Source: Earliella scabrosa
Lineage: Eukaryota; Basidiomycota; Agaricomycetes; Polyporales; Polyporaceae
Reading direction: 5' to 3'
Assembly (NCBI GenBank): GCA_022605405.1
Contig: JABYQQ010000022.1
Coordinates: 62,001 to 126,000, forward strand
DNA: 64,000 nucleotides
Translations under genes and position numbers: made by a program
Notes under the pieces: model-generated
Told to the model about the DNA's origin: nothing
Databases searched by the model: none
What the model saw: only the letters and a program-made list of their open reading frames with translations
Part shown: one piece after another, positions 24,632 to 48,996 of the stretch
How positions within the stretch are numbered: position 1 is the first letter of the stretch
How the letters are laid out: each line of letters begins with the position of its first letter

Positions 24632-26177
24632 CACGGCGGGCAGGGCCCAATAACCAGACGCGCGAAAAGTTTGGAAAAATCTCCACTAAGGCGACCTCTC
24701 TCGTAATTTATCTGATATTTACCTCTGACGGATAATGTGACATACATCCGACCCATTTCCAATGTTTTCTCGCGACCGCCATGACTATCTTTCCTGTGAA
24801 CAAAGCAGACGAGTAGAAAGCCCTGAACAGGCGACCTTATCCAAAGGTTTTTGTCTGTCGAACATGACGCTCCAAAGGTGACCTTTCCCGCACATTTTCT
24901 GATACTGTCCTGACAATTGAAAGGTAGCCTCCTCAGGCGGACCTTTCCAGTGTCCAGAAAGGGTCGAGAAAGGCTAACTTCTCTGGTACTCAACTCCGGC
25001 GCAGAACGACTAAAATAGGTCGTCTTTTCAGGTGCAGGGCAGTACCAGAAGAGACGACATTCTCGACCCCGGAAGAGTCTCGCCAGGTAGGTCAACTCTT
25101 CCGAAGCCGAAAATGTATGGCTTAGGCCACCTTTTCTGCCTACGCGAAATAGGCTCTCCACGCCACACCCCGACGCATCTCGCCGCACCCCGACGCACCC
25201 CGACGCACCCCGACGCATCCCGACGCACCACGCCACGCATACTCGCAGCTCGACGCGTCTCGGAGCCCTTCATTGACGGCGCGCCAGTGGGCGCGCCCGA
25301 GGTTGTAGGGCCCTCGTCGCGCCGCTGTGCGCTCATCACAACATGACCCACCGCGCCCCTCCGTCTTTTGTCATTCCCGCTAGACTACGCCAACGATCTT
25401 GCGCCAATGGACGACAACGAACCTCCGGTCCGGATCGCCGACACACCCACTCCCGAGCTCGCCACCGTCGATAGCTCCGTACCGCGCCGCCGCCGCCTCT
25501 CGTTGCTCCCCGCCGGGAGCGGCGTCTGAACGGCACCACTCCCTCTCGCATTCACGCCCGGCCCCGCCCCCGCCACTATGCCGCAGCGCGCTGGTTGAGA
25601 GCGCGCTTGCCGCAGTGCCTCGCCGCCTCCACGCCGCCCAGCGCCCCTCTGCTGTTTGTTCGGCTCCACGCGGTGCTAACCCTCTGCAGTCCCTCTCGCG
25701 TGCCCGCAACACTCCGCGGATGCACGCTGGTGGGAGAGCGTGTAAGAACACGCTGCCGCGGCGCCTCGCCGCCTCCTGCCTGCACGCCGTACGGGGCCGC
25801 CCCTCCCTGCGTCTACTCCGTATCGCTCCCCGCTGCTCCCCGCCCCTGCTCTCCGGCTGTGCGACACGACATCTACTTTCCACGCAAGTCCCAGCCTCTA
25901 TGCCACAGCGCGCCCTGTGAGAGTGCCGCCGCGGCGCCGAGGCGCCACCACTGCTCCCTGCCGTACTGCTCCCCGCCGCTCCTCGTCGCTCCCCGCCCCT
26001 GCTCTCCGCTCTTCCGCTCGCGGTTGCGTAGCGCCCCGCCTCTCCGCCCCGCTGATATTGAGCTCTAGGCCGCAGCGTGCGGGTGCCGTTCGAGAGCGTG
26101 CTGCCGCCGCCCCGAGCCGCCACCACTCCGTACTGCTCCCCGTCGCTCCTCGTCGCTCCCCGCCTCTGCGCCACACC
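24632..26177 (+). repeat. left terminal inverted repeat
   Basis: 1,546 bp, the inverse of 47451-48996. I noticed a single base difference, near the inner edge (CGCCTCTG against CGCCCCTG). The outer 500 bp are AT-richer and carry repeated AGGYNACCTYTYC-like motifs. A (CCCCGACGCA)n run follows near 25,190-25,220. The inner kilobase is very GC-rich and contains about four degenerate units of roughly 140-180 bp (near 25,575, 25,715, 25,895 and 26,065). Long open frames here look compositional. Confidence 0.92.
24688..25136. promoter_or_regulatory. subterminal motif array AGGYNACCTYTYC
   Basis: About eight related sites at 24688, 24828, 24874, 24934, 24969, 25015, 25085 and 25122, for example AAGGCGACCTCTC, AAAGGTGACCTTTC and TTAGGCCACCTTTTC. 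Some are partly palindromic (AAAGGTGACCTTT). The mirror array lies at about 48492-48940. Subterminal repeats of this kind bind the transposase or accessory protein in CACTA elements; that role is inferred here. Confidence 0.6.
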
Positions 26178-26339
26178 GGTGTCGCGCTCCTGTTCGCGCC
26201 CTGCTGGCGCTCCGCTGCACCGTGGGCTCTACCCGTGCGTCGCCGAGGCATCCGCGTCCGCTATCCCGCATTGCTCTGTCCTCCCGGGGACCGGCAGTTC
26301 CGAGATCGAAAAACGTAGAATAGAAGCAAATATAGTACA

Positions 26340-26445
26340 TGGATCACCACTGCATACATGTCCGTTGCGCCGCCGCAGCTGGGTGCATCAAAAACCTCCT
26401 CAGGGAGAAGGGAAAAAGCTACCAGCTGTACGCCGTGACGTTCGT
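26340..26445 (+). repeat. diverged inner extension of the left inverted repeat
   Basis: The block with ACATGTCCGTTGCG, GGGTGC.TCAAAAAACCTCC and AAAAAGCTACCAGC is repeated inverted at about 47110-47210, but with many substitutions and indels, unlike the outer 1.55 kb. It overlaps the area just downstream of the accessory gene's stop codon. Confidence 0.65.
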
Positions 26446-26447
26446 CA

Positions 26448-29400
26448 TTACCCGCGACTGCTGCCCTGCACAAACTCCGGCGGATGGTCGGGGGACGTCT
26501 CCATCTTCTTGGGCACTCTGAGAGTGAAGTTGTAGTCCGATTCGATGATCCGGAGGGCGCGATATTCGTGTGGCTTCAACGTCGCAAGCCAGGCCGGGTT
26601 GTAACAGTTGCGCCAGAGTCCCTTTGCCGGGTTCCCCAGCTCGGACCGGATGGGATCAGCCTCAACTCGCTCGCGAGGAGCACTCCCGCCACCTCGACTC
26701 CGCAAAATCTTCGTCTCGAAGTCCCAGATATGGAGGCGGTCGAGCGTGCGCAGGAAGTCCCTCAACGCATCGCTCATCCAGAGGACCCGGTGTATGAAGA
26801 ACCTGCCCTCACGAGTGCGCCTTCTCGGACCCTCCGCATCGGTCTCGTCTTCGCTGAAGTTCCCAGCCGCCAACCTGCTCATGAGGTCAACGTGCTCGTT
26901 GAACTCATGATCAACGACAACAGCAACGCGACCCTGGTGTAGCTAGAAGCCTAGTCAGACCGGAATGGATCTGAAAGGTTAGTTGAGGGCTCACCGTAGT
27001 CCTCCGAGCGCGTGCGCGAGCCTTCTTAGCGTCCTCTTCCTCATCATCGTCAGAAGATGGCTCCAGGATCTGCCGCACGCGAGCGCGCACGTGCTCCATA
27101 TGTGAGTCCAACGCGGCTCCGATGTGGTACTCCGTCCAGTAGCGTTGTGGAAACTGCAAGTCTTCTCTCTTGTATTCGCCGCCCCCAAGACAGTGGGCCA
27201 AGTGTCGTATGAAGTAGTCGCGAGCCTCGACATTGTAGGCGAATGTAGCCCAAGGCTGCTCAAGGTCGATATGGAAAGTCTCTGGTGTGAAGTAATCGTG
27301 GTCAACAGGGCTGCTGTTGTATGCGGTCAGCTCCGCTTCGGTGAGTGCACGACACTTCTGGGCTATATCCGCATAAGTCCTCGCGCCAAGGAGCTTCCTT
27401 AGATGTATGCGAACAACGCGCTGCTCACGCATTATCAGTCTTCAGCAACTGCACAACGGAAGCGGACGTACGGCAAGGCGATTCAGGTACACGAGTTCGA
27501 TAGCGGCCAGGTGTTCGATCTCGTCCCGGGTCCGCGGCTTGCCGTCTTCCGGAGGAGGTAGCTCGATGCGCGATGCTTTCGAGCGCGAGGTTTTCGGGGC
27601 ACGGGGCTTCTGGATCTTCTTGATGGGAGATAGCGCGTTCCCGCTCAACGCACCCTGTTCAATGCGAGTCAATCGCTGCTCCAGCCTTCCGATGCGACTG
27701 ATCACGGCTTTGCTGTTGAGCGTTGTCAGTATCGGATTATCAATGCCTGAAGGCGCTCGCTCACTTCTGCGTACGGACTTCCGCGAACAGCGCGTTCAAC
27801 TGATCGAACATGTGGAATGCGAGCCGTTCGGATGAGTAGTTGGGTGCAGCTTGCTTGCCGGTCGAACCCCTTTCCTCGTTAGCGTCCCCGAACAATGTTT
27901 GTAGATTGATCGGTCCAGAGGGCGATGGAGAGCGCTCAGGCACGTTTTGATCATTCGTCATGCCATCGCCTGCGTCGTCCTCGCGGTCTCCACGTTCGAA
28001 CTAGCAGGTAGTAAGCAACGAAGCGTGAGTTATGAACAACTGAGTCAGACACTTACATATCTTTCCATATATGCCTCTAATTCGGTATCGAGGTCCGGCC
28101 CCTCCTCCTCCTCCTCCTCCTCCTCCTCCTCCTCATAGTTGTCTGCCTTATGGTAACGTCCCGGGTCATCCGAACTGTCGTCAATGTCGGCGTCGTCTCC
28201 GCCGGCTCCGAGATCGTCGTCCATGGGATCGTCGTCCATGGAATCGTCAAGATCCGCCTGCATCCTCCGCCCCGCTTGCTTCTTCGAACGTCGCTTCAAT
28301 ATCCGAGTCGTGTGTAAGCCCAACTAGAGTATAGCACGACGTATTGGACAGCGCCTACCTGCGCAAGTTTGAACCGCACTGTGTTCCGCCTGCTACGATC
28401 TCCGCTATACGGATGCTTGATAGCTCGCGCGCGCTTGAACTGGGTGGGGCCGCCGCTCTTGAACGATGCTTGGCTGGATGTGCGTGGGTGGGTACGGGCC
28501 ATGGTTTGTGCGGCGGGATGGTTCTGCGTCGCAGCGAGGTGTTGCGGCCCGGAAGCGGGCTGAGGACAGATCGCGGGTTGCTCGGGGGCGTACATCTGCG
28601 TTGCAATGCCGCCTTGTGGCCTGCCATCTTGCTGAACTTGCAGGGCTTGACCGTAAGGTGCCATCCCGTACTCGGGGCCGTAGCCCGGCTGAAGGGTATG
28701 CTGCTAGCAATTGTAAGCAATATTCACGCGCGAACAGAACGAGGAAACTGAGCTCACGTGGTTGACCATTGACTGCTGGAGCTGTGGGGGCTGCTGAGCA
28801 ACCGGACCGTGTTGGTATTGCATCTGTGGCGGCTGTATGTACTGCTGCTGCTGCTGCTGATGTTGATGTTGCTGCTGCTGTTGTTGCATGCCTTGGGCCG
28901 GGTGAAGGGCCTGAGGCTGGAGATGCTGGACGAGCTGCGGGGCTTGTTGAGGCTGAACATGCGGCGGGGTGGGTTGGTGCATCTGAGGCGCATATGCAGG
29001 AGTGTACGGAGGCTGAGGCACGTATCGGACAGGCACTTGCTGCCCCTGCTGCATCGGAGCAGGTTGCTGGTATTCGGGTGGGGGACGCTGAGCATAGAGG
29101 GGATGCTGGGCGGGCGGGAGTGGAGGAAGAGCAGCACGAGGAGGCGGTTCTTGAGCAGCGACACCATTGGCAGTCTGAGAGAGCTGAGCTGCGGCAGCTT
29201 TCTCAGCGGCGCGTCGTAGGGCAGCCCCTCTCTTCTTCGGGACGTCAGGGACACTGAGTGGAGGCGCCCAATGCTGCACGCAAGTCAGTACGCCATGAGG
29301 ATGTGAACAGACAATTGGGATCACTGCTTACCACAGCCTCCGTCCTGCTCGACTTCTCATTCTCCAGGTTATCGACGCCACGCTTGCGCCGCTTGCGGCT

Positions 29401-29727
29401 GGATGAGGAGTTGATGGAAAGAGTTGGCGGCGGCATCGTCTGCGTTGGAGGCGATCCAGCAGGAGTGGTCGAAGCGCCGTCACCAGGAGCGCCGGCGCCT
29501 CGTGGTGGCGCAGTCGAGGCGCCGCTAGGCGTCGGGGGATGCCCTTGAGTAGCTGGCGACAACGAGCCAGCCAGAGGAGTTGTGCCAGGAGCTGGAGTCG
29601 ACGTATCAATTGGCGGTATAGGCGTGGTCTCAACGGAGGGATCGGGGGTGGGTGAGGTGGGTGGATGACTCGTACCCACAGGAGGATCTCCTGCGGGCGG
29701 GGTTGCTCGCGGTTCCGGAGGGGACAT
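26448..29727 (-). CDS. large element-encoded accessory protein, unknown function
   Basis: Multi-exon gene starting at 29727 (MSPPEPRATPP) and ending at 26448, next to the transposase and on the same strand. The first exons encode a Pro/Thr/Ser-rich region with a basic KRRKR stretch, then a Gln/Pro-rich region with poly-Q near 28,850. An acidic exon with a long Glu run (28,100-28,140) follows. The C-terminal half looks globular: RVVRIHLRKLLGARTY, a DHDYFTPETFHIDLEQPW segment and an HRVLWMSDALRDFLRTLD segment. I do not recognise a named domain. By position and composition it could be a DNA-binding partner of the transposase, like TnpA in plant CACTA elements; that is inference. Some exon borders are approximate. 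Confidence 0.7.
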
Positions 29728-29982
29728 GAGCGGGAGAAATGAGCGTCGGGCAGTCGTCGTGAGTCTCAGCTTCTATAGACTCTTGTTACAAAGGCACATT
29801 GTTAGTGAGTGGCGCGCCTCAACCGATAGACCACGGACAATGCAAGGCACGTAGCATGCCGAACGGCTCCAGGAGGAGGGTTCGGCAACCTTCGTGGATG
29901 GAGAACTGCAAAAATTCCATAGCGACTACTGAATACATATCCACGCATTGACGTTTGTCACTCAGCTCTAGATCATCGTAAG

Positions 29983-32900
29983 TCAGTACCACCAAGCGGT
30001 AATACAGAAATCATGTCGCAAACTCACCCTATCCAACGATCGTACCACGATGCACTCGCGTCCAATGTCCTCCGGCGTGTATATGAGGGCTGCGAAGTGA
30101 GAAATCACGTCAGTGAGACGGATGATTTCTGGTTCGAGCGTGAGGTCATTATAGCAAAGCCAGGTGGGAACATCGGGGAACCTCCGGTACGGATCGAGCT
30201 GGGTATGATCTTCGCTTAAAGGAAGAAATCGGTTAACCACGATGAACGGCTCCTCCTCGACAGTATTGCCCCCATCGGTGCTGCGAGTGTGGAATAAAAT
30301 CTCAGAGATCTTGCCTGCGATGGGTTCTCGATGCACGTCGGACGATGAGGAGAACAGGATGAAGGAATTGCGCTGGCTGCTAGTGGACGTCGCGTAGGTG
30401 ACCCCATCGTGATCGACGCTGCGCGCGTAGTCGGCCGAATCAGGAAGATAGTGAGAGCCGCCGATTCGCCCTTCACGGATGGATTCGAAAGGTGGAGACG
30501 TAGTCGCGTTGATGCGCTGGAGGAGGATGTCGTAAATAGCTGGTGGTAGGGTGCGTCTCACCCGCGCTGCACGACGCTGTGGCACATCTTGACTGTCTGG
30601 CTCAGCGATGGACGAGAGTATGTCCGTCGAATGGCTACCCTTCCGATACCCTTGGAACGCTTGGCGGAACGCGTGAATCATCTCTTGGTATGCGGTGAGT
30701 GTTGGCCAGTTTGCGTTGTCGACAATCCATCGTAGCGTTGCGCCCACATAGAAATACCGGATGAACGTTCCGGGCATCTCGGCTACATGCGCGCGTGAGT
30801 GAGCGGTCATCGTCATCATTATTCAACTCACAAGGTTTGTGGTTCGTCCTCAACCTCTGCAGCAGGCCGTTATATCGCTCGAAGGGAAAGGCCCACCATC
30901 CGTGAGATGGCCCGAACAAAAGGAGACAATCCTTTAGATGGAGGGATAGGTGATGGTTCGGGACCAGGTTGGCGTCGTAGAGCGTCCGTAAGCCCTGTAC
31001 ATATGCTTCCATGTGAACGTCATATGCGTTGGCACGCTCCGTTGACATCGAACGCCGAGTTGCGAGGTCGACAGCGGCGATGAGATGCATGAAGTTCTCG
31101 AGGGCACGGGCCTCGGTTTGCGAAGCGGAAGACGTTCCCCACAGGCGTACCAGCGTCATCACCATGGGAACCGTGCAGAGGGTCCGCCAATGATCGGCCT
31201 TCAACTTGCCGTGAGCAGCCTCTCCGATGTTTCGAGGAGGTTTCTCCAGCCAAGATGGAATGAACATTGCATGAATGTCCGCACGCAACTGCTTCAGGAC
31301 CGTTGATGTGAAGATCTCGTTGACACTGTCGGACTCCGGCTCGTCTCCAGGGAGGTAGAATTCGCTCATCGCAGAAGGCTGGGTAGGTGGAAGCTTGAAA
31401 GATCCGATGCCTCCAGGAACCTTCTCAACCTAGACATAGCTCAATGTACACGTCACGATAGGTGTACTACAGTTCGCACTTACCCACGCAAGCATCAGGT
31501 TTGCTATCCCAGCCTTCGTGCTCTTGTCCTCGGGTACCTCAATCCGGTTGAACTTCGCCACCGCGACAAGGTAGTCTCGCCTCGCGCGGGCTGTCGTGTC
31601 TTGGGAACCAGCAGAAACTCCTCTCATGATCAGCCTTAGCTGTTCGGCCTGCTGCTCTGGGGTGTGTGCCGCTGCTCGTCGAGGTGTCGTACGCTTCTCC
31701 GCAGTCTTCAAGCCCCAGATACTTATGCAATGGTGGCGTAGTTCTCCCAGAAAAAGGTTATGCATGGCGTCTAACAGCGCGAATCGCGTGGGGTCCCAGT
31801 ATGGAAGACGAAGCAGCTCTGACCACCTAATCCCATAGGCGTCGAAGATCTTCTTCCGTTCCTTGCCCGTTCGAGCTCGACGATACGCATTGGCGTGCTG
31901 GAGGTGCTCGGTCCATGAACAGGCGGGTGGCCAAGTGGAGCGATCTACGTTGTTCATGTCCTTCTCGAGCAGCTGGCAGAAGTTGCAGAAATGGGCGGCG
32001 GAGTATGACGCGAAGCCAGCCGTTTTCCTGAGGGCAGGCAGATCGCAGATGAGCGGAACCACGGCGACGCGCACGAGACGTCCAGAGGGACAATCCGCAG
32101 TGCACTGAAGGAAGATCCCTGGGTTCCACAGCTGGAGAAGCTCGTCGACGAGCGGGCGTAGGAGGTGATTGAGTTGAACGACATTGGGCTCCTTTGGGCC
32201 CGGAATGATGGCGAAGAGGAAGATGTTTTCCGGACGGTAGCGGAGATGGGGGGGAAGGTTCAGGCAGCACAGATAAACGGCTCCGATGCTATGCGACTTG
32301 CCTGCAGCCTTGTTGCCGCGAGGATTGAACCAGTCGACGAACAAGCTGAACACTAAATGCAGACCGCCGTCATCTTGCACCGAGAAGGGCGTCTTGCCGT
32401 CGGGGCCCATCAGGTTCCTGATCCCAGGCGTCTGCATAATGTCGGTCCACGATTCCCCTTCCTTCGGTTCGATCCACGAGTCCGCGATGAAACGCTCGAT
32501 GCCAACACGTGAGAGGAATTCGGCTAGCCAAGCTCGAAGGCTCCGGCACGGGAACGTCCGGTAGGGTACCCAATGCGAATGTCTCCCGTTCCCTGGCGTG
32601 ACAGCTCCGATAACTCTCTCGAATACGAGCGGCTCGTTGCAAGCCTGCGAGGCGGGGGTCTTCTTGTGTGTGCAAAAGCGAGGGAAAGGATCACGGGGTT
32701 TGGATGGGTCGGCTTGGTAGATGGCGAAACATTGACGGCAGCATGCGTACGTGACGATATCTGGGACGAGATGGAGCATCTTCATGGCGGTGCGTACGTC
32801 CTTGGGAAGGTTTTCCATGAGCAAGCGTTGTACCGGAGTGGGAGGCGAGCCTTGAGCGATGATCATGCCAAGCAGCACGACTTTCAGCGTGGAGAGGACA

Positions 32901-33915
32901 TACGCCGATACCGGGCGCGACACGGCGGCCATGGCATGGAGAACCGTCACCATCATCAGGCACGCAAGCAAGACGGGCTCCATAGAGGTACGGTTCTCGA
33001 GTTGAGGAGCTAGCAATGCCGACATGTCAATTTGAAAACTTGGGTCATGAAGATGGAGACGAACGAGGTGTGATGAGGATCGGTCGCTGATCATCCGGCA
33101 GCACATAGTAGCCTGGCACTCGCGCGAGCACCTTGGCTTGATCCCACGACCAAACGAGAATTCTGTCCAGACGAATAAGATGGGCGTCGAGCCGCTTGAG
33201 ATTCGCCGTTCGTTCTCCGTCAGCGCCCTTGTCACCAATTGGCAGGATGGTGGTGTGTAAGTCCCGCTTCTTCCGCTCGAGCCATGTCCGAAACTCGATG
33301 TATGCAGTATTACTGCGTGCGGACGCCAAGGGACCCGGGGGATCGGTGGACGACGAGGGGGCCGATTGGAAAGCGAGTCGGGTGGAGAGTGGTACGCTGA
33401 GAGACCGGCGATGGATCTCTGCTTGAAGCTCCCCCATAGCGAGAATACGAGTCCGTATCCCCTCCTAGAATGGCGTCGTAAGCAAGAGCAAGTTGTACAA
33501 GTATCACATGTTCACCTTCAGAGAGAGTTGGTTCAACGACTCCACGACGGCCTGGGTATCATCCTCATGGCAACAGTCAGAGCCTGGTGATCAGAGCATC
33601 ATTAGACAGACTTACATCGGCGGTGTCGACTATAGCCCTCGACGGATTCCGGGCTGAACTGCCGGTGCCCGCGGACGCAGAGAGGTCACGGTTGCGGACA
33701 GACGTAAATTTTGGTTGATCCGGCTGCAAGGTCGTTAACAGGACGTCAGCAGCGATACGTTCTTCTGCTTGCTGAGCGAAGTCTCGACGCTTCTTCTCCC
33801 TCAACTGGTGTGTGTTATAGTCAGATTGGGACACGATCGCACCAGGGTGGCGCTCTCCATCCTCGTCCTCGTAACGCGACGTCTTGATGCAGATGGAGCA
33901 AGTACAGATGGGCAT
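29983..33915 (-). CDS. tnp2: Tnp2-family (Transposase_21, CACTA/EnSpm-like) transposase
   Basis: Transposase of the class common in agaricomycete genomes, about 1,200 aa over several exons. The N-terminus (from ATG 33915) has CTCSICIKTSRY and a helical RTWLERKKRDLH region. The central exon (about 33,060-31,490) has WIEPKEGESWTDIM, DGKTPFSVQDDGG, FSLFVDWFNPRGNK, ENIFLFAIIPGPKEP, ICDLPALRKTAGF, HFCNFCQLL, LRLPYWDPTRFALLDAMHNLF and GELRHHC. The following exons carry IGEAAHGKLKADHWRT and WWAFPFERYNGLLQR, and the last exon extends to about 29,983. Acidic residues in the VDWF, CDLP and LDAMH segments are candidates for the DDE triad. No stop or frameshift was seen within the conserved core, so it may be active. 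The junction near 33,090-33,020 and the last intron are uncertain. Confidence 0.88.
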
Positions 33916-34120: not shown

Positions 34121-35831
34121 TCACAAGGAGTCCCAGAGAGGATACTCACTCGGTGGCGCTCGTGGTTGGAGCCACCAAAGAAGCGTGACAGCGCCGATGA
34201 GCGCCATGATGGCGCCAGTGGCACGGGCCATGCTGTCTCGACTGAGAAAGATCGCAATGTCGTAGATACTCCGCCAGCGGTCAGACCGCATGGCAGTCTA
34301 GAGGGATGACTTCAATCGTGACAGGAAGAATGTCCGACCAGGAAAAACGTACCAAGGCGCCTCGAACTCGGACGGTGATAGCCTTGCTATGCTCCTCAAG
34401 CATTATCGTCCAGGGCAGTCGGTACGAGCTCTCTCCTCCCGGACCGTCCTGGGCTAAGACTGCGGTCGCCTCAGGATGAGACGTGCAGGACGCGTGGGAC
34501 TGATCCAGAGGCACATCGGGTACAGAGCCAGAAGCTCCCCCGGCCACTTCGTCCCCCGGAGCCCCCGCGACGGGCGTCGCACTCATCGTGGGGGGAAGAT
34601 TGATGGCACGTTCAGCTGTTTCTGCGACGAAAGGCCCTTCAAGGAACGCGTCTAGGGAGGGGAGTGATGAGGAAGTCTTCGCCACTGCGCGGGTTCCCGA
34701 CAGCTCATCGGCCAGATTAGGCCGCGTCGAGTTATGTTTGGCTATGACACCGAGAGCGTCTTCGGAGACGAACTCACGAACAAGCTCCCTCGTTGATTCG
34801 ACCTGCTCCTGGATGGTCTGCTCGCACTCGTGGAGGCGCTGCAACCGACACCCCATATCATCCTGGATGGAAAGAACCTCGGCGATACCATTCGCCATAG
34901 TCTCCATTGCCTGCTTGTCAGAAAGGTGCTGAGCTTGCAGCGTCGCGATCGCGCGCTGAGCCTTTGCGAGCTGTTGCTCCAGTGTCCTGACTGAGTCGGA
35001 CGCAGCCTCTTGCGTCTTCCCCATGGTACGGCGCTCTTTAGCAATGGTTTCTACGTGACAGAGCCGGCTCTGAATGAGGCAATGACGACGGAGCAGAGCA
35101 GTAAATACCTTGGGTTTTGACCAGCAGCCTCCTGGACGTCTTGACAGACTCCCCAAACTGGGTGCGCAAAAGGTTCAGCTCAGTCTCTAATTCGGTCGTC
35201 CGTTGATCAATTTTCCTCTGCGGTGAATGAGTATATGAACGGGTGCATGCTGGAGCGAACTCACTTGTGCGCGCTGGATCTCTCTGATTGACGTGGCAAA
35301 GTAGGTGGACAGACTCGGAGGGCCATCCGATACGGAGAGTGTGTCTTCCGGATTAACGTAGGCACCCGGGGTCAACGGCCTGCGAGCCGGAGGGATGGGA
35401 GGGGAGCGCAGCTTGAGTCCAGAGAACGACGTGACCAGGGGTCCGAGATATTCATCTTCCTCAGAGCCCGCGAGCCCTGCGTCATCTGCATGCCCATCCT
35501 CGGCTGCAACGCTGTCTTCAGATTGAGAGGTCTCTGACCTGGATATGCTGGACCGAGAGGGAACGCGATCCACTTGAGAGGACGTCGGACGATCCGACGA
35601 ACCTACTGAAGGCAGCTCAAAAGAGGAGTCGTTCCCATCCGACGAAATGGCATTTCGCGGCGAGTGCGGGGCGCAAGAAGACGGTGTGCGAGGAGGAGAC
35701 GGCGTGCGAGGAGGAGACGGCGTGCGAGGAGGAGACGGTGTGCGAGGAGGAGATGGCGTGCGAGGAGAGACCATGGGAGGAGGAGAGGCCTTGGGCAACT
35801 CGGAGCTTGTATCGGGAAGTGTCGTTGACAT
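34121..35831 (-). CDS. coiled-coil protein with C-terminal membrane anchor (element cargo)
   Basis: Exons (minus): 35831-35265, 35217-35109, 35050-34353, 34297-34121; 516 aa if the start is the ATG at 35831. An in-frame upstream ATG at 36038 would add 69 aa. The first exon is disordered, with five PPRTPS repeats from an 18-bp minisatellite. Exons 2-3 encode a long coiled coil (RKIDQRTTELETEL through LAKAQRAIATLQAQHL to TIQEQVESTRELV). The last exon, joined by a clean 55-bp intron (GTACGT...CTCTAG), encodes MARATGAIMALIGAVTLLWW, one hydrophobic segment followed by a tail of roughly 14 residues. An alternative donor at CCGA|GTGAGT would change that tail. The architecture is that of tail-anchored coiled-coil proteins. 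No named domain recognised. Confidence 0.65.
35680..35770. repeat. 18-bp minisatellite
   Basis: About five copies of GTGCGAGGAGGAGACGGC in direct tandem, encoding the PPRTPS repeats of the coiled-coil protein on the minus strand. Confidence 0.85.
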
Positions 35832-38273: not shown

Positions 38274-39924
38274 ATGCCGGGGACTCGATATACTCAAACA
38301 GCTCACTTGACCGACGGCCATTCGGGCGGTATCACTGCAGTGGTCTTCAATCCTGACGGCTCCTTCCTCGCTACAGCGGGACTGGACGGCACGGTCTGCA
38401 TCTGGGATACGAAGACCTGGCTTCTCCTGGACGTCTACCGCTCCAAGGCGAAAGTTACGTCACTTGCATGGTTTGACGACGAAGCGCTTGTGTGCGGGCT
38501 GGCTGACGGCATAATCTCGTCCATGGTCAAAGGCGAGGTGAGTGGCGCACAATGCAGACATACCGCTCGCTCATTCTAGGCTTGAAGAACTTCACCCACG
38601 TACGTGGTATGTGGGGCCACCTCTATCCAGTGGAGCATCTTGCCGTCTCGGGAGGACTGCTTGCGTCTGGCGCACAGCAGGAGTTGTGTATATGGCACTG
38701 GAACCCCAATCGTAGGGATTCTTCGTGTCACGAACATTCGATACGCTGACTTGCCCGCTTAGCCGCTATGGCATGCCTGTTCAGGTCCCTACCGTCGCCG
38801 TTAACTCCTCAGCGCCCGAGCAAGGCTCGGAAGCGACATGGAGACAAGGGAAAAGAGCGGCAGGACACACGGAAGGAGGCCTATGGGCCAGTTCAGCAGA
38901 ACGACGGCCGTAAAGAGGTGGGCGACCAGGAGGTCCTCATCACTGGCGTCTTCTGGACTCCCTCGTGTCTTGTCATCGCATACCTCAGCCACGGAGTGAG
39001 GTGAGCTTATTGTCGATGACGCGGTTGTCTTTTCTCCTGTAGTACTAAACCGCGGCTTAGATTGTTCGACAGAGAGACATGGCAGTGCGTTCAAACTCTA
39101 GGATACCAAGACCCTATGTGAGATGACTTCATCATCTACTCGTAGCTGACGTTGATATAGACTTATTTATTCCAGTGTAACGAGCAGCCTATCTCCTAAC
39201 GGAGCGCTTCTGGCGGCGTATAACCCCGGGGTTGGCTTCCAGATCTATAACCTGGACACCGGCAAGATCACCCAGACGTTCAAGCAAGGGGACGAAGGAG
39301 AGCACTCACGTGCGATCCAGGTGTCTTTCATTCATGGCGGGCACGCCATCGTTGGTGGCAGTACCAGTGGCTCCCTAACGGTCTGGTTCGTTGAGTCCGA
39401 GCGCAAGCTACCTGCGTTAGCCGTGCCAGGTATGTATCACGCCTGTTCGTGCTGCGCTAGGGTTTCTGACCTTCGTGTAGGCGATGGAAAGGTTCTAGCC
39501 TTGTCGGTAAGCATATCAACGCTGATAAAGATGCTTCGGCTTTGCGCTGACAGCATCTTCCAATACAGGGCTACTACGTCGCAGAGAAGGATATATTCAT
39601 GATCGCGGCAGGAATCATGAACGAAGATGGCCCGTCTCCGGTGATCGTATGGACTGCGGGAGGCTCTCTTGGGGGAAAGAAAGCTGCAGAACCACAGAAG
39701 TGTGACGAGGATCAGAAGTCCCCTTTCCTCTGCACTATCAAATCGCTGGTACGTTCCGTTGTCAGTCTCTCCTGTTCGACGCCGAGTCGCTGACACATGT
39801 CCAGATAATTAGGGCAGTAGTCTGGCTGGCAATCGTGCTCCTCTTCGTCAGCGTCATGTACATGCTCCTCAAGGGCGAGTGGGTGGATGAAGAGTATGAC
39901 TACGGCTTCGGAGAGGAGATGTAG
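38274..39924 (+). CDS. WD40-repeat protein with C-terminal transmembrane segment (element cargo)
   Basis: Starts MPGTRYTQTAHLTDGHSGG. Exons: 38274-~38532/38537, 38580-38711, 38763-39000, 39043-39117, 39176-39429, 39481-39506, 39569-39748, 39805-39924; about 427 aa. WD-type blades are visible: GHSGGITAVVFNPDGSFLAT followed by AGLDGTVCIWD; GGLLASGAQQELCIWHW; EVLITGVFWTPSCLVIAYL; SLSPNGALLAAYNPG; AIVGGSTSGSLTVWF. The last exon is a single membrane span (VVWLAIVLLFVSVMYML) with an acidic tail. All junctions keep frame except exon 1-exon 2: the obvious GTGAGT donor is out of phase, and only a GC donor at 38533 restores it. This WD40-TM architecture is common in wood-decay agaricomycetes; its function is unknown. 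Confidence 0.75.
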
Positions 39925-40165: not shown

Positions 40166-40832
40166 TCAAGAACACAACTCCGTGAGTGATTCTGGGTTGC
40201 CAGATATCAGCTTCGCCTGAGTATTGGACTTCGCTTTCGCGACCATGCCCGCGAACCCGCGAACATGTTCGAGTACCGTAACTGCGCTCACGCCGCCGAT
40301 GAGTGGCCCGCTTTCAGAGCTCTGAGCCATGGCCACAGGGCGTTCGAGAGAACTGACGGTGTTCTCGGCAATCCAATCTTCCAACGCCGCCTTGAATTCT
40401 TCCAGTATTTCTTCAATCTCGAACGACAGAAACACACCGAAGTGTGCGAGGCGCATGCTGAGCATTGTAGGCGACTGTCGATCGAAGTCAGAAGTGAATT
40501 GCAAACGGATCAGGGAGAATACCCTTACTAGACGTTGCAGTGACACTACTCCCTTGGGGGTGATCTCTAACGGACGGAAGGTGACGACTTCATCGTTCTC
40601 GACTAGAGTGCACAGGAGCACTAGACAGATAAATGGATGAATATATTTGCCGCAACTAGTATGCGCAGAGTGGTGCTCGCAACTCACAAGACAGCGGCTC
40701 GGCGAGCTCAACCAGATATACTTGCGTGCCTTTCGAGGCGTAATCCTCATCCTCAGCATCATCAGTCCCGAAGACAAACACTGTGTCGCACGGAGCGGTG
40801 TAGAACAATTTCACGGGTGCGTCATAGACCAT
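40166..40832 (-). CDS. hypothetical protein (element cargo)
   Basis: Three exons, 40832-40688, 40620-40529 and 40474-40166, with good splice sites and continuous frame, give 181 aa. It starts MVYDAPVKLFYTAPCDTVFV, has an acidic TDDAEDEDYA loop, then VYLVELAEPLSLLLC and LVENDEVVTFRPLEITP. A helical region follows (SFEIEEILEEFKAALEDWIAE). I do not recognise a family. It is convergent with the WD40 gene and divergent from the next hypothetical gene, with which it shares the region 40833-41526. Confidence 0.6.
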
Positions 40833-41526: not shown

Positions 41527-42542
41527 ATGGCTCCCGTTCACTCTAAGCTTTGCTCCTCTAACCCCTCAAATTACTTCTTCTCCGCATCGCGTCGTCGCGA
41601 GCATGGATCACCCACTCTAGTTGAGTGCGTGGCTCCAGCTCCGGCTCGTCGTGCACGGGGCGCTGTGCTCACGGCAACTCGACAGTTCAAGAGTTACACC
41701 ACGTCGTACGTCGTTGAGTCTCCCCCTTCAATACCGCGTCTGACCGTCCTCATTCCACAGTATCAAACGCCAAACGCAACTACGGAGGCACGAGACACTG
41801 GTCGATCTCACGTCCCGAGGTGGTACGCCTGGCCCTTCAGGCTCCTCGAAGCGGGGGGCAACTCCTCCGGCTGCCCGCGCATACTCTCCATCGGGCGAGA
41901 GTGCGTCGTCCGAGGAGTCCTCTCTCTCCAGCATCCCATCTTCTCCCTCCCCACCTCCTCTCCCCAAGGCTACCGTCAATGTGCGCGGCTCGGTAAAACC
42001 CCAAGCAGGGTCGGCTCCGCGAGGATCTCTGTTGCAACGGAAGAAGCTAGGCAAGAAGGCATCGCTCGCCACGATTGCGGACTACCTGAGGCCTAATGGG
42101 GAGTTGATCACGCGATATGGCGAAATGGTGAGCTGCATGTACGTGACCCCGTATCTTCGGCGCCCTGACCTCCTCGCAGGACGGCGAACCTTTCTTCCTC
42201 AAAGATAATAGGACAACCTCTACTACGGACCCGGACGTCCGCACTCCATTCTGGGAGTCCTTCTCGGCGGAACCAATCCTCAACCCCCCCGATCTAACGT
42301 CATACCCAGACTTGAAGGTTGGCGATCTCTACAGCAACGTCGTGCTCGACCTGCCCACGGTCACTGTGCAGCTTTGGACGTGGTCAGTGAGCGCCGATGG
42401 TAAAGGCTACTGGAAGAAGACTCGGGAGGGGGCTGTGAGGGACGACGGGCGACGACTCACTATAACTCCGACGAGGCATCAGCCTTCTTGGGTGTCTCCA
42501 GGCTGGGGGATCAAGCAGCTTCGTAACCCAAAGGCGCGTTAG
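41527..42542 (+). CDS. hypothetical protein (element cargo)
   Basis: Exons 41527-41705, 41761-42127, 42180-42542 give 302 aa. The N-terminal part is basic, the middle is a Ser/Pro-rich disordered region (SASSEESSLSSIPSSPSPPP), followed by QRKKLGKKASLATIADYL and a C-terminal part with DLYSNVVLDLPTVTVQLWTW. No domain recognised. The gene is intact and begins a run of four consecutive plus-strand cargo genes that ends at the right repeat. Confidence 0.6.
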
Positions 42543-42935: not shown

Positions 42936-43938
42936 ATGTCTGCTCGTATCTCACGTTATGCTACGGTGCCCCTTGGTACGTGACTCCTTGCCAACATATC
43001 GCAGTTCCCAATCTGATTGTGCTTTAGTGCGCAAGCGCGACGAGCGGAGATTTAGAGTCGCGGACGACCGCAATGACCACAACGACCGCGATAACCTCAA
43101 CGACCGCGACGACCACGACGACCGCGACGACCGCGACGACCGCGACGACCGCGACGACCCTGAGGACCGCGATCATAACGACAACGTCATCTACGAGTAC
43201 GCGGAGAGCCTTCCGAGGCGCATTCTTGACGCCATCATAGACTATCTCCTCGGAGATTTCGACTATGACTGTACTTGCGGCCGTTGCGAGCTCCGTGAAG
43301 GGGCCATCTTCGTAGCATTCAACATCATCCGCTCCCTTGGCCTCGGCGTTTTTGGATTTGTCCGCGCCCTCCTCGAGTTCCTCTTCGAGGACATCGTCAT
43401 GGCAGCCCTGGGTGAGGATGACTGCGACTGTGGCGCTTGCTACAACGACACCCCGGCGCTGATCCGCTGCATCCGCGGCTTCGTGGCCGTCGCCCTTATG
43501 CTCTTCAAGTATTTTGCTGTAGCCGTTGTCGTCGTCAACATCGTCATCGTCACACCCATTGGCATGTCAGAGCGACGTGCTATGCAGCTCACGTGTCTCA
43601 TGCTGCCCGCCCTGGCATGTCCTCCGCCCTTCCTGTCTCACACCATCGCTCCAACCATGGCCATCCTCCCAACTTCCCCGCCAGCCGCGCAGTCGAACAT
43701 GGGTGGGCAAGCGTTCGACCTTACGAACACTCCTTCGTGCACCATCGCGCTGCAGCAGATCATGCCTCTCCCTGCCCATGATCGGCCAGACACTACCGGT
43801 CACGCACAGCAGGACTCGGATGCGCCGGTTGTCAAAGTCGTGAAGCCGGAGCTCTCCCCCGACATATCCTGCACTGCGGACTCCGCGCGTACCACGGTGG
43901 CGTTCATAGACGAAGGAGTGCTCACCGGCGCTCTCTAG
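42936..43938 (+). CDS. charged, cysteine-paired membrane protein (element cargo)
   Basis: Exons 42936-42975 and 43028-43938 give 316 aa. A highly charged N-terminal region has DRDD/HDDR repeats encoded by a 9-bp GACCGCGAC tandem (43,100-43,160). Two similar units follow, each with paired cysteines and then a hydrophobic stretch: DYDCTCGRCELREGAIFVAF with LGLGVFGFVRALLEFLF, and DDCDCGACYNDTPALIRC with FVAVALMLFKYFAVAVVVV. The C-terminal third is Pro/Ser-rich. The duplicated CxCGxC-hydrophobic unit suggests a membrane protein that binds a metal or forms disulfides. Family not recognised. The start was chosen because the splice at 42975 joins it in frame. Confidence 0.6.
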
Positions 43939-44457
43939 CATGCCAGACTAGTGCCCCGGTCAGAGAGGTGATTGGAGACTCGGGCAGAAGTCGATAGATC
44001 AGTTGCTTCGATCACACGAATAGATACTACATTTCGAAAGCGTCCTGTATATGTGACTCAGGGCAGGCAATGGAATAGACTTTGAATGGGATACATGCAG
44101 CGGCGGGGCGCCTCTCTGGTGTGCCGGATACAGGCGCTCACCTCGTGGCGTTTCCGTCGCGTTCCCACCAGGCCTCCATGTCGCTCTCTGGTCGCTCTCC
44201 TTTGCGCCGCTCACATTGCCCGTCCGCATCAAGGTCAGTGGCTCATTCGGTTCAATATCCACCTCAGCTCATCTATAATCAGATACTAGCGAACCATCTC
44301 CGAGTCTTATACGTACTTGTCGTACGTGGTATGCCAGATCCGTACAATCCTGATCGATTCCTACCGCCTCGTGAGTTGGACCCCATTCTTTGCCCTTCGC
44401 ATTCTCACTTCTTCGTCAGCTCGAAACGTTCGGTTTAGCTCCAAAGAAGACGAGAAG
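43939..44457. other. spacer upstream of the SUN gene
   Basis: No gene supported. It contains the promoter and leader of the SUN-domain gene. Confidence 0.35.
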
Positions 44458-45372
44458 ATGGCCAAGCGTATCCGCTCGCGAAATGCACATAGTGACTCGG
44501 ACGACGCAGACACTGTTCGCGGAGACAACCAGATTCGTCGTAGTGGCATGTGGTCCACCTGGCTCGTCGTTCTCCTGGGTCTGTTCGGACTAGCCTTGGG
44601 TGCGTGTCTCGGCGCCCTGATCTACGACGAGAGCGGAGTTGTATCCCGAAACCTTGTCAATGTCCCAATCGTCCGGTCGAAGTTCCCTTTCCTCTTCCCT
44701 ACTTTCGTTGGTCGTCGCCGTCCGACTGCAGTCCCACTTCACATCGCTACTTTTGTTCGGAAGGCAATCAAGGAAGCCCTTGACGACCCTGTGGGTTTGC
44801 CCGACTATGCGCTGGCCGCTGAGGGCGCCAAGATTATCCAGAAGCTAACGACCTCGTCGAAATCCGACCTCGAGAAAGCTCGCCCGCCTTCCAACATTCT
44901 AGATGAAGACATACGCAGCGGATCATGCTGGTCCTTCTCAGGCGATCGTGCGCAAGTCGGCATCAAAGTCTCCACGCAACTTTACCCCACCCATGTCACG
45001 ATCGAGCACATTCCCCGTGCGATCACAGCACATATCTCTCACGCTCCTCGTCATGTTGTCGTTTGGGGCGGGTTGGATGGCAAGGACAATGAGCGACGTT
45101 ATGCAGAATCTATGGAACGACTCCGCATGTCCCCTCTGAACGAGACTGGAGAGGGCCCTCCCATCACAGGCGGCAGTACGTTCCTGCCCCTAGCCGCCTT
45201 CGACTACGATCCGAAGGCCAAATCTCACGTTCAGACCTTCCCCATTGACGCTGCAATCTGCGCGTCACGCATCTTCTTTGGTGTCTTCGTCGTCGAGGTC
45301 AGAAGCAACTGGGGTGGCGCCATGACACGCCTGTATCGTGTGCGGGTTCACGGGTTGGAAGCTACATGGTAA
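44458..45372 (+). CDS. SUN-domain protein (element cargo)
   Basis: Single-exon frame of 304 aa. Residues 1-30 are a basic/acidic nucleoplasmic-type tail, about 31-56 a transmembrane helix (WLVVLLGLFGLALGACLGAL). Residues about 114-300 match the Sad1/UNC-84 domain: LPDYALAAEGAKII, GSCWSFSGDRAQVGIKVS, YPTHVTIEHIP, APRHVVVWG and a final RLYRVRVHGLE. SUN proteins sit in the inner nuclear membrane and bind KASH-type partners in the lumen, linking chromatin or telomeres to the cytoskeleton. The spacer between membrane and SUN domain is short, without the long coiled coil of most orthologs, so this may be a reduced element-specific version. Finding it inside a transposon is unexpected. Confidence 0.85.
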   Translation: MAKRIRSRNAHSDSDDADTVRGDNQIRRSGMWSTWLVVLLGLFGLALGACLGALIYDESGVVSRNLVNVPIVRSKFPFLFPTFVGRRRPTAVPLHIATFVRKAIKEALDDPVGLPDYALAAEGAKIIQKLTTSSKSDLEKARPPSNILDEDIRSGSCWSFSGDRAQVGIKVSTQLYPTHVTIEHIPRAITAHISHAPRHVVVWGGLDGKDNERRYAESMERLRMSPLNETGEGPPITGGSTFLPLAAFDYDPKAKSHVQTFPIDAAICASRIFFGVFVVEVRSNWGGAMTRLYRVRVHGLEATW

Positions 45373-45819: not shown

Positions 45820-47107
45820 ATGGCTCCTGGTCCACAACTAACGTTAGCCTTCTCGTTGATCCGAGGGTTCCCTCCTGTGTTAGAAGACGTTACCACCATG
45901 TTGAACAAGGAGCTGGATAGGTGAGTAGGCTTCAGTGGCTCACTCCCATGCTCGCTACTCACAGTTGTTGTCTGTGTCCTAAAGCGCGCGCGACAAGCTC
46001 ATTCTGCCTGTGGACCTATCTCGTTGGTCTTCAGTACTCTCATCACGCTCAAAGGGACGCTTCGACACACTTGCGACCGTCACTGTCCAGGAGGTGACCC
46101 TGCTCCGAGCCACTCTGGATGAGTTGTACCCTGGAGAGCACGAGCTTCCGACTCGTCTCGATGCGGTCTTTGGGGCGATGCAAACCTCGTTCGGGGAAAG
46201 CAACACGCTCTGGCAACAGGTTCGTTGTGCACATTGTCTGATGCTGTTGCACACGGGTTCAAATTCTCGTAGTTCAAGATGTCCTATGACAACAACGTGC
46301 TCCACCTTGATACCAGCGAGCGGGAATCGATGGAGAAGGCCTTCCCCGATCTGGAGCGGAGGTGCGAGGATATACGTCGTCGAGTTGCTGCTGCAAAGAC
46401 AGCGTTCGCACGCTGGAGGCCCTGCTTCGATTTGGTTCTGACTGAGGTGCGCTGCTCGTCACCTGTGTACTAACCTCGTGAGATCTGATAGCAATTTGTA
46501 GGAAGGACGCCTGGGCTATCACAATGTCCTCGACGAGAGACGAGCGTGGACCAGAGAGACGTTTCCAGACAGGGTTACAGTGGTCGTCAACTCGCTGCAG
46601 CAACTCGCAGATGCACGCGCTGATCTCGTGTTGCAGAGCACGGAGCTCTGGGACAAGTACTTGGATGCATGGATCGGTCGCTCTACTAGTGGGAACCGTC
46701 TCCCAACGAGCGAATTGTGCGCAGCTACTGCCCAGTACCTAGCAATCTGCCAGGCGCTTGCTGAGCAGACCGAGCAGCAGAAGGCTTTGCTCGATGAACT
46801 CAAGGTACGTGGTTTGTAGGAGCGTTATGAATGCACGGCTCATTGGCCGCCAGTCAATCACGAAACAGGCGCATATTTATGGATCCACTCTGAGTGCCGC
46901 TCAAGGCGCCCCTATTTCCATCGAGGACATTCGCAACAGCTTCGACCGCTACGAGTCGATCTGGATCGAGAGCATGAAGCTCAGTGAGGTATGTAGAACG
47001 CCAAGTTCATCATGACATTGGCTGACTTCTATTAGATGTGCAACACTGTGAAGGCGACCTTGCAAGATCGTATGACGATCTTGGAGGGGGCACGCGCGAG
47101 GGCTTGA
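45820..47107 (+). CDS. helical, probably coiled-coil protein next to the right repeat (element cargo)
   Basis: Six exons (45820-45920, 45985-46219, 46273-46446, 46502-46804, 46869-46988, 47036-47107), all phase-consistent; 334 aa. The sequence is almost wholly predicted-helical by composition: VQEVTLLRATLDELYPGEH, a FPDLERRCEDIRRRVAAAK segment, an LQQLADARADLVLQSTELW segment, a LAEQTEQQKALLDELK segment and VKATLQDRMTILEGARARA at the end. No membrane segment or known domain. The gene stops about 20-30 bp before the diverged inner edge of the right repeat. As a soluble helical protein next to a SUN gene it could be part of the same complex; that is only inference from position. Confidence 0.65.
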
Positions 47108-47109
47108 GC

Positions 47110-47450
47110 GGAAAGCATGCGGACGCACGGCTGGTAGCTTTTTCCTCCGCGGGAGGTTTTTTGACGCACCCGGCTGCAGCGACGCAACGGACATGTGTTC
47201 GCAGGCGATTCGTGTACTATATCCATCCTATGCTACGCTATGTTACATGGCCGAGGAAGCATAACTACTGCGGAGCGACGCAGTGCAGCGAAGAAGCGTG
47301 AATGCAGTCTGAGGAGGCCCTGCAGAGCGGCGGGGTGCGGGACGGTGTGGAGGCGGCGTGACACCGCGGCAGCCCGCTCTCATATAGCACACTGCCCCAC
47401 CATTGTCGGGGCAGAGAGGCGGGGCGTTACGCAACCGCGGGCGGACGAGC
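47110..47450 (-). repeat. diverged inner extension of the right inverted repeat
   Basis: Continues the inverted repeat inward with much lower similarity. The block near 47110-47210 matches 26340-26445. The part at 47,300-47,410 is a fifth copy of the GC-rich internal unit that the left side lacks in recognisable form. Confidence 0.6.
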
Positions 47451-48996
47451 GGTATGGCGCAGGGGCGGGGAGCGACGAGGAGCGACGGGGAGCAGTACGG
47501 AGTGGTGGCGGCTCGGGGCGGCGGCAGCACGCTCTCGAACGGCACCCGCACGCTGCGGCCTAGAGCTCAATATCAGCGGGGCGGAGAGGCGGGGCGCTAC
47601 GCAACCGCGAGCGGAAGAGCGGAGAGCAGGGGCGGGGAGCGACGAGGAGCGGCGGGGAGCAGTACGGCAGGGAGCAGTGGTGGCGCCTCGGCGCCGCGGC
47701 GGCACTCTCACAGGGCGCGCTGTGGCATAGAGGCTGGGACTTGCGTGGAAAGTAGATGTCGTGTCGCACAGCCGGAGAGCAGGGGCGGGGAGCAGCGGGG
47801 AGCGATACGGAGTAGACGCAGGGAGGGGCGGCCCCGTACGGCGTGCAGGCAGGAGGCGGCGAGGCGCCGCGGCAGCGTGTTCTTACACGCTCTCCCACCA
47901 GCGTGCATCCGCGGAGTGTTGCGGGCACGCGAGAGGGACTGCAGAGGGTTAGCACCGCGTGGAGCCGAACAAACAGCAGAGGGGCGCTGGGCGGCGTGGA
48001 GGCGGCGAGGCACTGCGGCAAGCGCGCTCTCAACCAGCGCGCTGCGGCATAGTGGCGGGGGCGGGGCCGGGCGTGAATGCGAGAGGGAGTGGTGCCGTTC
48101 AGACGCCGCTCCCGGCGGGGAGCAACGAGAGGCGGCGGCGGCGCGGTACGGAGCTATCGACGGTGGCGAGCTCGGGAGTGGGTGTGTCGGCGATCCGGAC
48201 CGGAGGTTCGTTGTCGTCCATTGGCGCAAGATCGTTGGCGTAGTCTAGCGGGAATGACAAAAGACGGAGGGGCGCGGTGGGTCATGTTGTGATGAGCGCA
48301 CAGCGGCGCGACGAGGGCCCTACAACCTCGGGCGCGCCCACTGGCGCGCCGTCAATGAAGGGCTCCGAGACGCGTCGAGCTGCGAGTATGCGTGGCGTGG
48401 TGCGTCGGGATGCGTCGGGGTGCGTCGGGGTGCGTCGGGGTGCGGCGAGATGCGTCGGGGTGTGGCGTGGAGAGCCTATTTCGCGTAGGCAGAAAAGGTG
48501 GCCTAAGCCATACATTTTCGGCTTCGGAAGAGTTGACCTACCTGGCGAGACTCTTCCGGGGTCGAGAATGTCGTCTCTTCTGGTACTGCCCTGCACCTGA
48601 AAAGACGACCTATTTTAGTCGTTCTGCGCCGGAGTTGAGTACCAGAGAAGTTAGCCTTTCTCGACCCTTTCTGGACACTGGAAAGGTCCGCCTGAGGAGG
48701 CTACCTTTCAATTGTCAGGACAGTATCAGAAAATGTGCGGGAAAGGTCACCTTTGGAGCGTCATGTTCGACAGACAAAAACCTTTGGATAAGGTCGCCTG
48801 TTCAGGGCTTTCTACTCGTCTGCTTTGTTCACAGGAAAGATAGTCATGGCGGTCGCGAGAAAACATTGGAAATGGGTCGGATGTATGTCACATTATCCGT
48901 CAGAGGTAAATATCAGATAAATTACGAGAGAGGTCGCCTTAGTGGAGATTTTTCCAAACTTTTCGCGCGTCTGGTTATTGGGCCCTGCCCGCCGTG
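47451..48996 (-). repeat. right terminal inverted repeat
   Basis: 1,546 bp, inverse of 24632-26177 with almost no differences, ending ...GGGCCCTGCCCGCCGTG. Contains the mirrored GC-rich units, the (TGCGTCGGGG)n run and the subterminal motif array. Confidence 0.92.

Follow-up and report, generated by a model that had tools for sequence, protein, structure and literature searches.

A giant CACTA/EnSpm-type transposon in Earliella scabrosa with ten genes, among them a Tnp2 transposase and a SUN-domain protein

A 64,000-nucleotide stretch of the polypore Earliella scabrosa (assembly GCA_022605405.1, contig JABYQQ010000022.1, positions 62,001 to 126,000 of the forward strand; hereafter the window, whose numbering is used wherever no contig is named) contains a giant DNA transposon of the CACTA/EnSpm type, 24,365 bp in length, that fills positions 24632-48996. 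Two inverted repeats of 1550 nt each, differing at 3 positions, enclose it (24629-26178 and 47450-48999), but its true termini are 24632 (CACGG...) and 48996 (...CCGTG), as the outermost three bases on each side belong to the flanks. Ten spliced genes with GT-AG introns (g1 to g10) were modeled between the repeats, and the features of the locus are listed below, where the ratio of nonsynonymous to synonymous substitution rates (dN/dS) refers to the comparison of the window element with a diverged group of copies (subfamily B).

24632..48996, no strand: whole element, CACTA/EnSpm-type giant DNA transposon, CACGG...CCGTG ends, with a 100% identical copy between other flanks on contig C1
24629..24631, no strand: left flanking triplet AGT, matching the right flank of the C1 copy and not its own right flank
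24632..26178, plus strand: left terminal inverted repeat, 1.55 kb
26376..26428, minus strand: stem-loop resembling an element for nuclear expression (ENE), U5/U5 internal loop, about 20 nt past the g1 stop
26448..29436, minus strand: g1, accessory protein of about 850 residues in 8 exons, Q/P-rich N-terminus, conserved C-terminal half; Tnp2-fused homologue in Trametes pubescens and T. cubensis gene models; dN/dS 0.21
29962..33915, minus strand: g2, Tnp2 transposase of about 1206 residues; Pfam Transposase_21 (5e-15); dN/dS 0.11
34121..35831, minus strand: g3, Pro-rich N-terminus, coiled coil, one C-terminal hydrophobic segment, conserved tail ...SEYPLWDSL; predicted tail-anchored, KASH-like by layout only; dN/dS 0.24
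36110..37301, minus strand: g4, 343 residues, formerly labeled LRR-like, no Pfam match; dN/dS 0.19
38274..39924, plus strand: g5, WD40 protein with a C-terminal hydrophobic segment (predicted tail anchor); Pfam WD40 (6e-16); dN/dS 0.17
40166..40832, minus strand: g6, gene model of 175 residues; dN/dS 0.15
41527..42542, plus strand: g7, 302 residues, conserved C-terminal beta-rich domain; identical to NCBI C8Q76DRAFT_789324; dN/dS 0.19
42936..43938, plus strand: g8, Asp/Arg-rich, CxCxxC motifs, hydrophobic segments; dN/dS 0.42
44331..45372, plus strand: g9, SUN-domain protein of 330 residues, one hydrophobic segment before the domain, short KASH lid; Pfam Sad1_UNC (2.2e-21); dN/dS 0.16
45820..47107, plus strand: g10, 339 residues, without known domain; dN/dS 0.19
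47128..47176, plus strand: ENE-like stem-loop about 20 nt past the g10 stop, missed by the strict search pattern as it has six T, not five, on one side
47450..48996, minus strand: right terminal inverted repeat, 1.55 kb
48997..48999, no strand: right flanking triplet TCT, matching the left flank of the C1 copy

An earlier note, made from the letters of this sequence, had proposed a 24 kb transposon-like element at 24632..48996 between two near-identical 1.55 kb repeats, enclosing a Tnp2 transposase, a SUN protein and a membrane-anchored WD40 protein, and all of this was borne out: the boundaries hold to the base, and the three proteins (g2, g9, and g5 with its predicted C-terminal segment) are those that exceed the Pfam cutoffs. 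Its LRR-like label for g4 could not be confirmed. The genes that it had described as accessory, coiled-coil, CxC membrane, helical and two unknowns had no match above the Pfam cutoffs, the best rows below them being TFIIA for g1 (0.0006), a CA109-like family for g3 (0.007) and HTH_Tnp_Tc5 for g10 (0.043), with best E-values of 0.078 for g7, 0.2 for g6 and 0.8 for g8. In g2 a CNFC is visible by eye, a candidate for the C(2)C motif that CACTA/EnSpm transposases have, along with an H(3-4)H motif, between the catalytic D and E. The g7 model equals C8Q76DRAFT_789324 of E. scabrosa over all 302 residues; residues 201 to 290 of its predicted structure, taken in blocks of ten, have a confidence (predicted local distance difference test) of 82-93, and the fold has no PDB match at E<=0.001, while g10 has no PDB sequence match at E<=1.

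The assembly (51.67 Mb, 48 contigs) holds a second copy of the whole unit at C1:1417492-1441856, a 24,366 bp match with 0 mismatches and 0 gaps between different flanks. The identity of the two copies ends at the repeat ends to within a base, and the recent movement proposed by the earlier note accords with it; chance or local duplication was considered and is ruled out by this identical copy elsewhere. A diverged subfamily B (C2, C39, C43 and part of C11) carries all ten genes in the order of the window element, at 73-78% DNA identity (aligned blocks of at least 100 bases inside genes). The third subfamily, at C8:838368-865175, has 1,703-bp repeats at 99.94% identity and 8 of the 10 genes (7 of the 9 proteins queried by tblastn, and g3 by a separate search), and a further locus on C28 matches 6 of the 9 queried proteins (g6, g8 and g10 were missed) and possibly the g3 tail. 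Elements of the family thus measure 24-27 kb with inverted repeats of 1.5-1.7 kb, and the termini CACGGCGGGC...GCCCGCCGTG are found in the window, C1, C2, C39, C43 and C8 copies, a single end being visible on C11.

The bases adjoining these termini match across insertions as triplets. AGT stands left and TCT right of the window copy, TCT left and AGT right of the C1 copy (C1:1417489-1441859). Direct triplet duplications flank the element on C39 and its duplicate on C43 (TAT/TAT) and the C8 element (AGT/AGT), and TCC is both the left triplet of C2 and the outer triplet at C11, where the contig ends inside an element; the right flank of C2 is that of C39. We take this as a 3-bp target duplication, direct in C39/C43 and C8 and crosswise between window and C1 and between C2-left and C11, together with an exchange among similar copies that took place either in the genome itself or during assembly. 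The crosswise AGT/TCT flanks suggest that C22 and C1 either were crossed over in the assembly or really exchanged sequence, and the left and right halves of the window may derive from different chromosomes. As a separate observation, C39:113714-141900 and C43:6400-34587 are near-duplicates including their flanks and C2:1508653-1510505 has the right flank of C39 and not the left, a pattern of either leftover haplotigs or another crossover through an element.

Genome searches with the SUN, Tnp2, g7, g4, g3 and g10 proteins returned further loci beyond the copies named above, and the SUN genes among them cluster with the transposase: of the 25 SUN loci, 16 have a Tnp2 relative within 25 kb, 19 within 50 kb and 24 within 100 kb, against chance expectations of 0.8, 1.6 and 3.2 loci, with P values that are overstated because the copies are non-independent (window and C1 are identical, C39 and C43 duplicates). 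Merging 2 fragments reduced 27 SUN rows to 25 loci; for Tnp2, the merging of 6 fragments and the removal of 11 weak rows turned 50 rows into 33 loci; and, with fragments merged, the 37 rows for g7 gave 23 loci and the 32 rows for g4 gave 17. All four locus numbers are lower bounds. In 13 of the 16 g4 loci that have a Tnp2 within 100 kb (17 g4 loci in total) the g4 match starts 4-5 kb from the Tnp2 match. Identity to the window element is correlated between Tnp2 and SUN (rho 0.66, 17 loci) and between Tnp2 and g4 (rho 0.88, 12 loci), with the identical C1 copy and C39/C43 omitted, pairs up to 89 kb apart retained, and the Tnp2 of C33 paired by hand with the SUN at 157211 (68 kb) and not with the nearer B-like fragment at 179526.

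Three side observations concern these loci. No SUN match lies within 100 kb of the Tnp2 relatives at C2:895149, C2:2693935, C3:1958211, C7:1859628, C7:2008419, C10:128589 and C18:502551, among others, which represent either a related lineage or decayed elements. C33:177482-182437 holds part of a relative of subfamily B, rearranged and about 84-90% identical, whose SUN match contains stops (introns not excluded), and at C11:109568-115716 three g7-like matches are found near one Tnp2 and one SUN gene.

Relatives of the element genes are also present in other fungi. SUN relatives were found in Cerioporus, Daedaleopsis, Lenzites and Trametes and, more distant, in Mortierella-group fungi, and g7 relatives in Lentinus, Daedaleopsis, Cerioporus and Trametes; in Trametes sanguinea one SUN and one g7 are presumably on a single contig of 24,240 bases. 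Among the 120 Tnp2 relatives listed (the best 120 of 246), ten are gene models in which the transposase is fused with g1, g3, g4, g5, g7 or g9, i.e., in Trametes pubescens (g3; g1), T. cinnabarina (g3 and g4), T. cubensis (g1), Ganoderma sinense (g9; g3 twice; g7; g4) and Phlebia brevispora (g5). Such fusions are probably annotation mergers, and they imply that the genes are neighbors in those species; for the element-type SUN, adjacency to Tnp2 in another species is seen solely in such a fused model (one protein, P0034). The family is old; transposase, SUN, g4 and g7 keep together across its divergent members, and like genes are neighbors in other polypores.

All ten genes have dN/dS values of 0.11-0.42 between the window element and subfamily B, which designates them as maintained by purifying selection. 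These are simple Nei-Gojobori counts over tblastn-aligned codons at a synonymous divergence (dS) of 0.8-2.3, i.e., near saturation, and the values are approximate. The ten genes are old, open in the window copy and maintained. What the earlier note had called non-transposition cargo is indeed present, but owing to its age, conservation and co-inheritance with the transposase it is better named a core gene set. The copies with both repeats and the same gene order for which that note had proposed searching exist (the C1 copy and subfamily B, with C8 sharing both repeats), the supposed cargo co-occurs with the transposase in this genome and in other Polyporales, and syntenic single-copy host genes between unrelated local repeats, its own alternative, were not seen in this genome.

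Several of these proteins have predicted membrane segments and, in one case, a domain typical of nuclear-envelope proteins. By profile, sequence and predicted fold g9 is a genuine SUN-domain protein: a sequence search matches it to human SUN2 (8e-17), and the top 12 PDB matches of its predicted fold are all SUN1 or SUN2. In a small tree of 17 sequences the 12 element-type SUNs form a group of their own (support 0.985), to which neither the presumed host SUN nor any of the four early-diverging fungal SUNs belongs (of the 18 proteins in the SUN-relative search P0004, P0007, P0011 and P0015-P0017 were unused, and P0001 is the window's own). The presumed host gene, C12:1197988-1198509, is the sole SUN match without a Tnp2 relative within 100 kb, has a longer KASH lid and is presumably the host's own Sad1-type gene. 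The second candidate for an envelope protein is g3, whose predicted coiled coil, single C-terminal hydrophobic segment and conserved tail resemble a KASH protein in layout. Its hydrophobic segment passes a 17-residue window and fails a 19-residue scan, and is followed by 15-32 residues that end in WDSL in four copies, in WDDL in one and differently in C28 (W-D-[SD]-L in 5 of 6 distinct copies). Besides these, g8 combines CxCxxC motifs with hydrophobic segments, and g5 a WD40 domain with a C-terminal one.

The two outward-reading end genes, g1 and g10, are both followed by the same stem-loop, in which GGUAGC-UUUUU and UUUUU-GAYGCACC surround a small hairpin while the outer closing stem varies with compensating changes. 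The stem, U-rich internal loop and flanking G-C pairs of an ENE are all present, and the energy and covariation controls are mixed. The strict pattern has 15 matches in the genome, the reversed control pattern 0; across 10 sequences (the C11 copy, the same as B_left, was omitted) the paired cells amount to 95%, whereas sliding one side lowers this to 32-52%, and changes on both sides affect 10 cells, compared with 4.5 in shuffles (0 of 500 shuffles reach 10). Folding energies of four copies give z-scores of -2.5, -0.6, -1.9 and -3.2. Rfam returned nothing at E<=1 for the stem-loop, and no match to it was found at the left end of C8. In transposon RNAs, ENE elements hold on to the poly(A) tail (PMC12501189 and PMC12846552), and the loops after g1 and g10 could do likewise for the two outward transcripts.

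This giant CACTA/EnSpm-type transposon has ten co-inherited genes, including Tnp2, and we consider it reasonably likely that the SUN-domain protein and other predicted membrane proteins among their products act jointly at the nuclear envelope for the maintenance or transmission of the element. Long inverted repeats, CAC...GTG ends, matching 3-bp flanks across insertions, an identical second copy, purifying selection on the ten genes and the old association of transposase, SUN, g4 and g7 are the directly observed part of this reading. In the mechanism that we postulate, Tnp2 (with g1) would recognize the ends, cut and move the unit, the SUN protein in the inner membrane and the tail-anchored partner would bridge the envelope, and this bridge could tether element DNA, the transposition complex or the nucleus, to the advantage of the element's retention or transmission. 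The envelope step is its least certain part, and what the element gains from the gene set is inferred. Mushroom cells contain two nuclei each, and nuclei migrate between mates, so that a selfish element could profit from controlling nuclear position. More tentatively still, and with odds that we would place well on the doubtful side, this lineage of giant transposons in polypores may encode its own bridge of the type formed by the linker of nucleoskeleton and cytoskeleton (LINC) complex, consisting of the short-lid SUN, the tail-anchored coiled-coil partner and the WD40 and CxC membrane proteins, and drive the host nucleus or itself through the two-nucleus life. That a selfish element might act on the nucleus rather than solely on DNA belongs to this same conjecture and is just as doubtful.

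A number of observations weigh against a jointly acting, co-inherited gene set in a mobile element. At the level of the insertions, the window copy's own flanking triplets are mismatched as assembled, no empty site exists in this assembly (the earlier note had proposed looking for strains with one; both cross-paired flank joins were searched, and the matches were the flanks themselves only), and the end repeats of subfamily B are just 84% identical over 900 bp. Gene content and order vary: tblastn did not find g6 and g8 in C8 or C28, nor g10 in C28, g7 is on the opposite strand in C8, and g1 of C28 is at the SUN end and not beside Tnp2; furthermore, g6, g8 and g10 had no match among the 149 homologous proteins examined. 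Of the 24 SUN loci counted as near, 5 lie 55-89 kb from the Tnp2 relative and may not belong to the same element, and for 12 of the 33 Tnp2 loci the nearest SUN, if any, is at least 99 kb away, although one of the 12 is truncated by a contig end. At the position of the KASH lid of human SUN2, the presumed host SUN and the four early-diverging fungal SUNs have a longer loop than the 12 element-type SUNs, whose loop falls short of the lid expected of a LINC SUN domain, and the g3 tail is without the PPPX ending of KASH proteins, which leaves a canonical SUN-KASH pairing putative. The hydropathy scan itself is crude, as its 19-residue setting missed g3 and flagged Tnp2, g4 and the inside of the SUN and WD40 domains. 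As for the stem-loops, two of five covariation measures are unexceptional (87 and 141 of 500 shuffles reach them), the right-end copy of the window folds no better than shuffles (z -0.58), and two copies on C4 partly fold otherwise.

The extra genes could instead be transposition machinery proper, serving in DNA binding, regulation or escape from silencing, with the SUN and membrane features incidental to a role in chromatin or at the nuclear periphery. Helper enzymes, e.g., TET/JBP dioxygenases, are indeed encoded by fungal transposons (PMC12730594), g4 is close to Tnp2, and in the window as well as two gene models from Trametes g1 adjoins the transposase. However, a bona fide SUN fold behind a hydrophobic segment points to membranes and not to DNA chemistry, and so do a coiled-coil and a WD40 protein that each have a C-terminal hydrophobic segment; we regard this explanation as possible but rather unlikely.

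We find it improbable that host genes were captured as passive cargo, useless to the element, and conservation has already largely refuted it. Several of the genes lack a known function, 12 of the 33 Tnp2 loci are without a nearby SUN, and an enlarged En/Spm of Chondrus crispus with 4-5 open reading frames in 16-20 kb (PMC6431247) demonstrates that large elements with extra frames exist. Nevertheless, useless passengers would hardly show purifying selection on all ten genes between subfamilies near synonymous saturation, or a gene order conserved between the window and subfamily B, or SUN, g4 and g7 genes that track the transposase over many loci and adjoin it in other species. In addition, the separation of the element-type SUNs from the presumed host SUN indicates that they were not freshly captured time and again.

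An ordinary chromosomal region, duplicated segmentally or by the assembly and flanked by unrelated inverted repeats, is very improbable at this locus and refuted for the family: although the assembly does have duplicate contigs (C39 and C43 agree along 28 kb, flanks included) and the two identical copies seem to have traded flanks, those of the window and C1 copies differ and are each found once, the identity stops at the repeat ends, and the strongly diverged third subfamily has the same ends with a clean AGT/AGT duplication. Polintons and virus-like elements are marked by a protein-primed polymerase, an integrase and a capsid. Such an element, or a Starship, is scarcely credible here despite the size, the multi-gene content and the long terminal repeats, for the transposase is Tnp2, no captain tyrosine recombinase, protein-primed or other polymerase, integrase, capsid or packaging ATPase appears in the Pfam rows of the ten models (for g5, the best 25 of 40 rows), and none of the five stretches of viral contigs that matched the search pattern encodes a Tnp2 relative.

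Around the element, the window contains repeated coding-like segments (16503-23652 and 283-684) that are about 3.3-3.5 kb apart and 67-93% alike, with inverted partners at the left edge; one scanned stretch overlapping a copy (16271-16981) had no Pfam match. The open reading frame at 11383-12561 has an HbrB-like Pfam match above the cutoff (1.3e-8) and is probably a host gene, whereas below the cutoffs are a weak F-box-like match in a 731-residue open frame (50188-52380) and weak FAD-dependent oxidoreductase matches at 21826-22536. The other seven of the ten flanking stretches scanned were without a match.

The family is one of DNA transposons in which a large set of genes that might readily be written off as cargo is conserved, under selection and inherited together with the transposase. 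If its SUN and tail-anchored proteins do act at the nuclear envelope, the element would be a transposon that manipulates nuclear architecture and would offer a testable link between selfish DNA and the pairing and migration of nuclei in mushrooms. Most SUN genes found in this genome are near such transposase genes, and this matters for the annotation of nuclear-envelope proteins in mushrooms.

Among known systems, the element shares with CACTA/EnSpm transposons, as described for fungal EnSpm in Kojima 2025 (PMC12730594), the Tnp2-type transposase (here by the Transposase_21 match), the 5'-CAC..GTG-3' ends and the 3-bp target duplications, but it differs in its 24-27 kb length, its 1.5-1.7 kb repeats and its ten genes, some of which encode SUN, WD40 and coiled-coil proteins predicted to be anchored in membranes. 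In the main text of that source the words sad1, wd40 and accessory are absent and "sun" begins a word twice. The TET/JBP-carrying transposons that it treats (Kyakuja, Zisupton, Dileera, EnSpm and Plavaka) are alike in having a helper gene in many fungal DNA transposon lineages; here, by contrast, no TET/JBP dioxygenase appears in the Pfam rows of the ten models, and the gene set is membrane-looking and far larger. The Chondrus element is likewise an oversized En/Spm with several open reading frames, to which ours is likened by size and number of frames, and differs from it by its ten genes and by relatives in several species. Giant fungal transposons are represented in PMC13066641 by the Starships, which also move many genes as large elements but do so with a tyrosine recombinase captain and not with Tnp2 and long inverted repeats. 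ENE poly(A) triple-helix elements, as PMC12501189 and PMC12846552 present them, resemble our stem-loops in having a U-rich internal loop right after the stop of a transposon gene, although here they stand at both outward end genes of a DNA transposon, within a conserved GGUAGC/GAYGCACC surround, and the triple helix is putative. A SUN- or KASH-carrying transposon did not appear in the titles and abstract openings of the open-access matches listed (subscription papers are mostly absent from these). With the LINC complex, e.g., that of Cryptococcus Sad1 (PMC6034078), the element shares a SUN domain after a hydrophobic segment and a candidate coiled-coil partner with a C-terminal anchor; it differs in being encoded by a transposon, in its short KASH lid and in a partner tail that ends in WDSL and not in PPPX.

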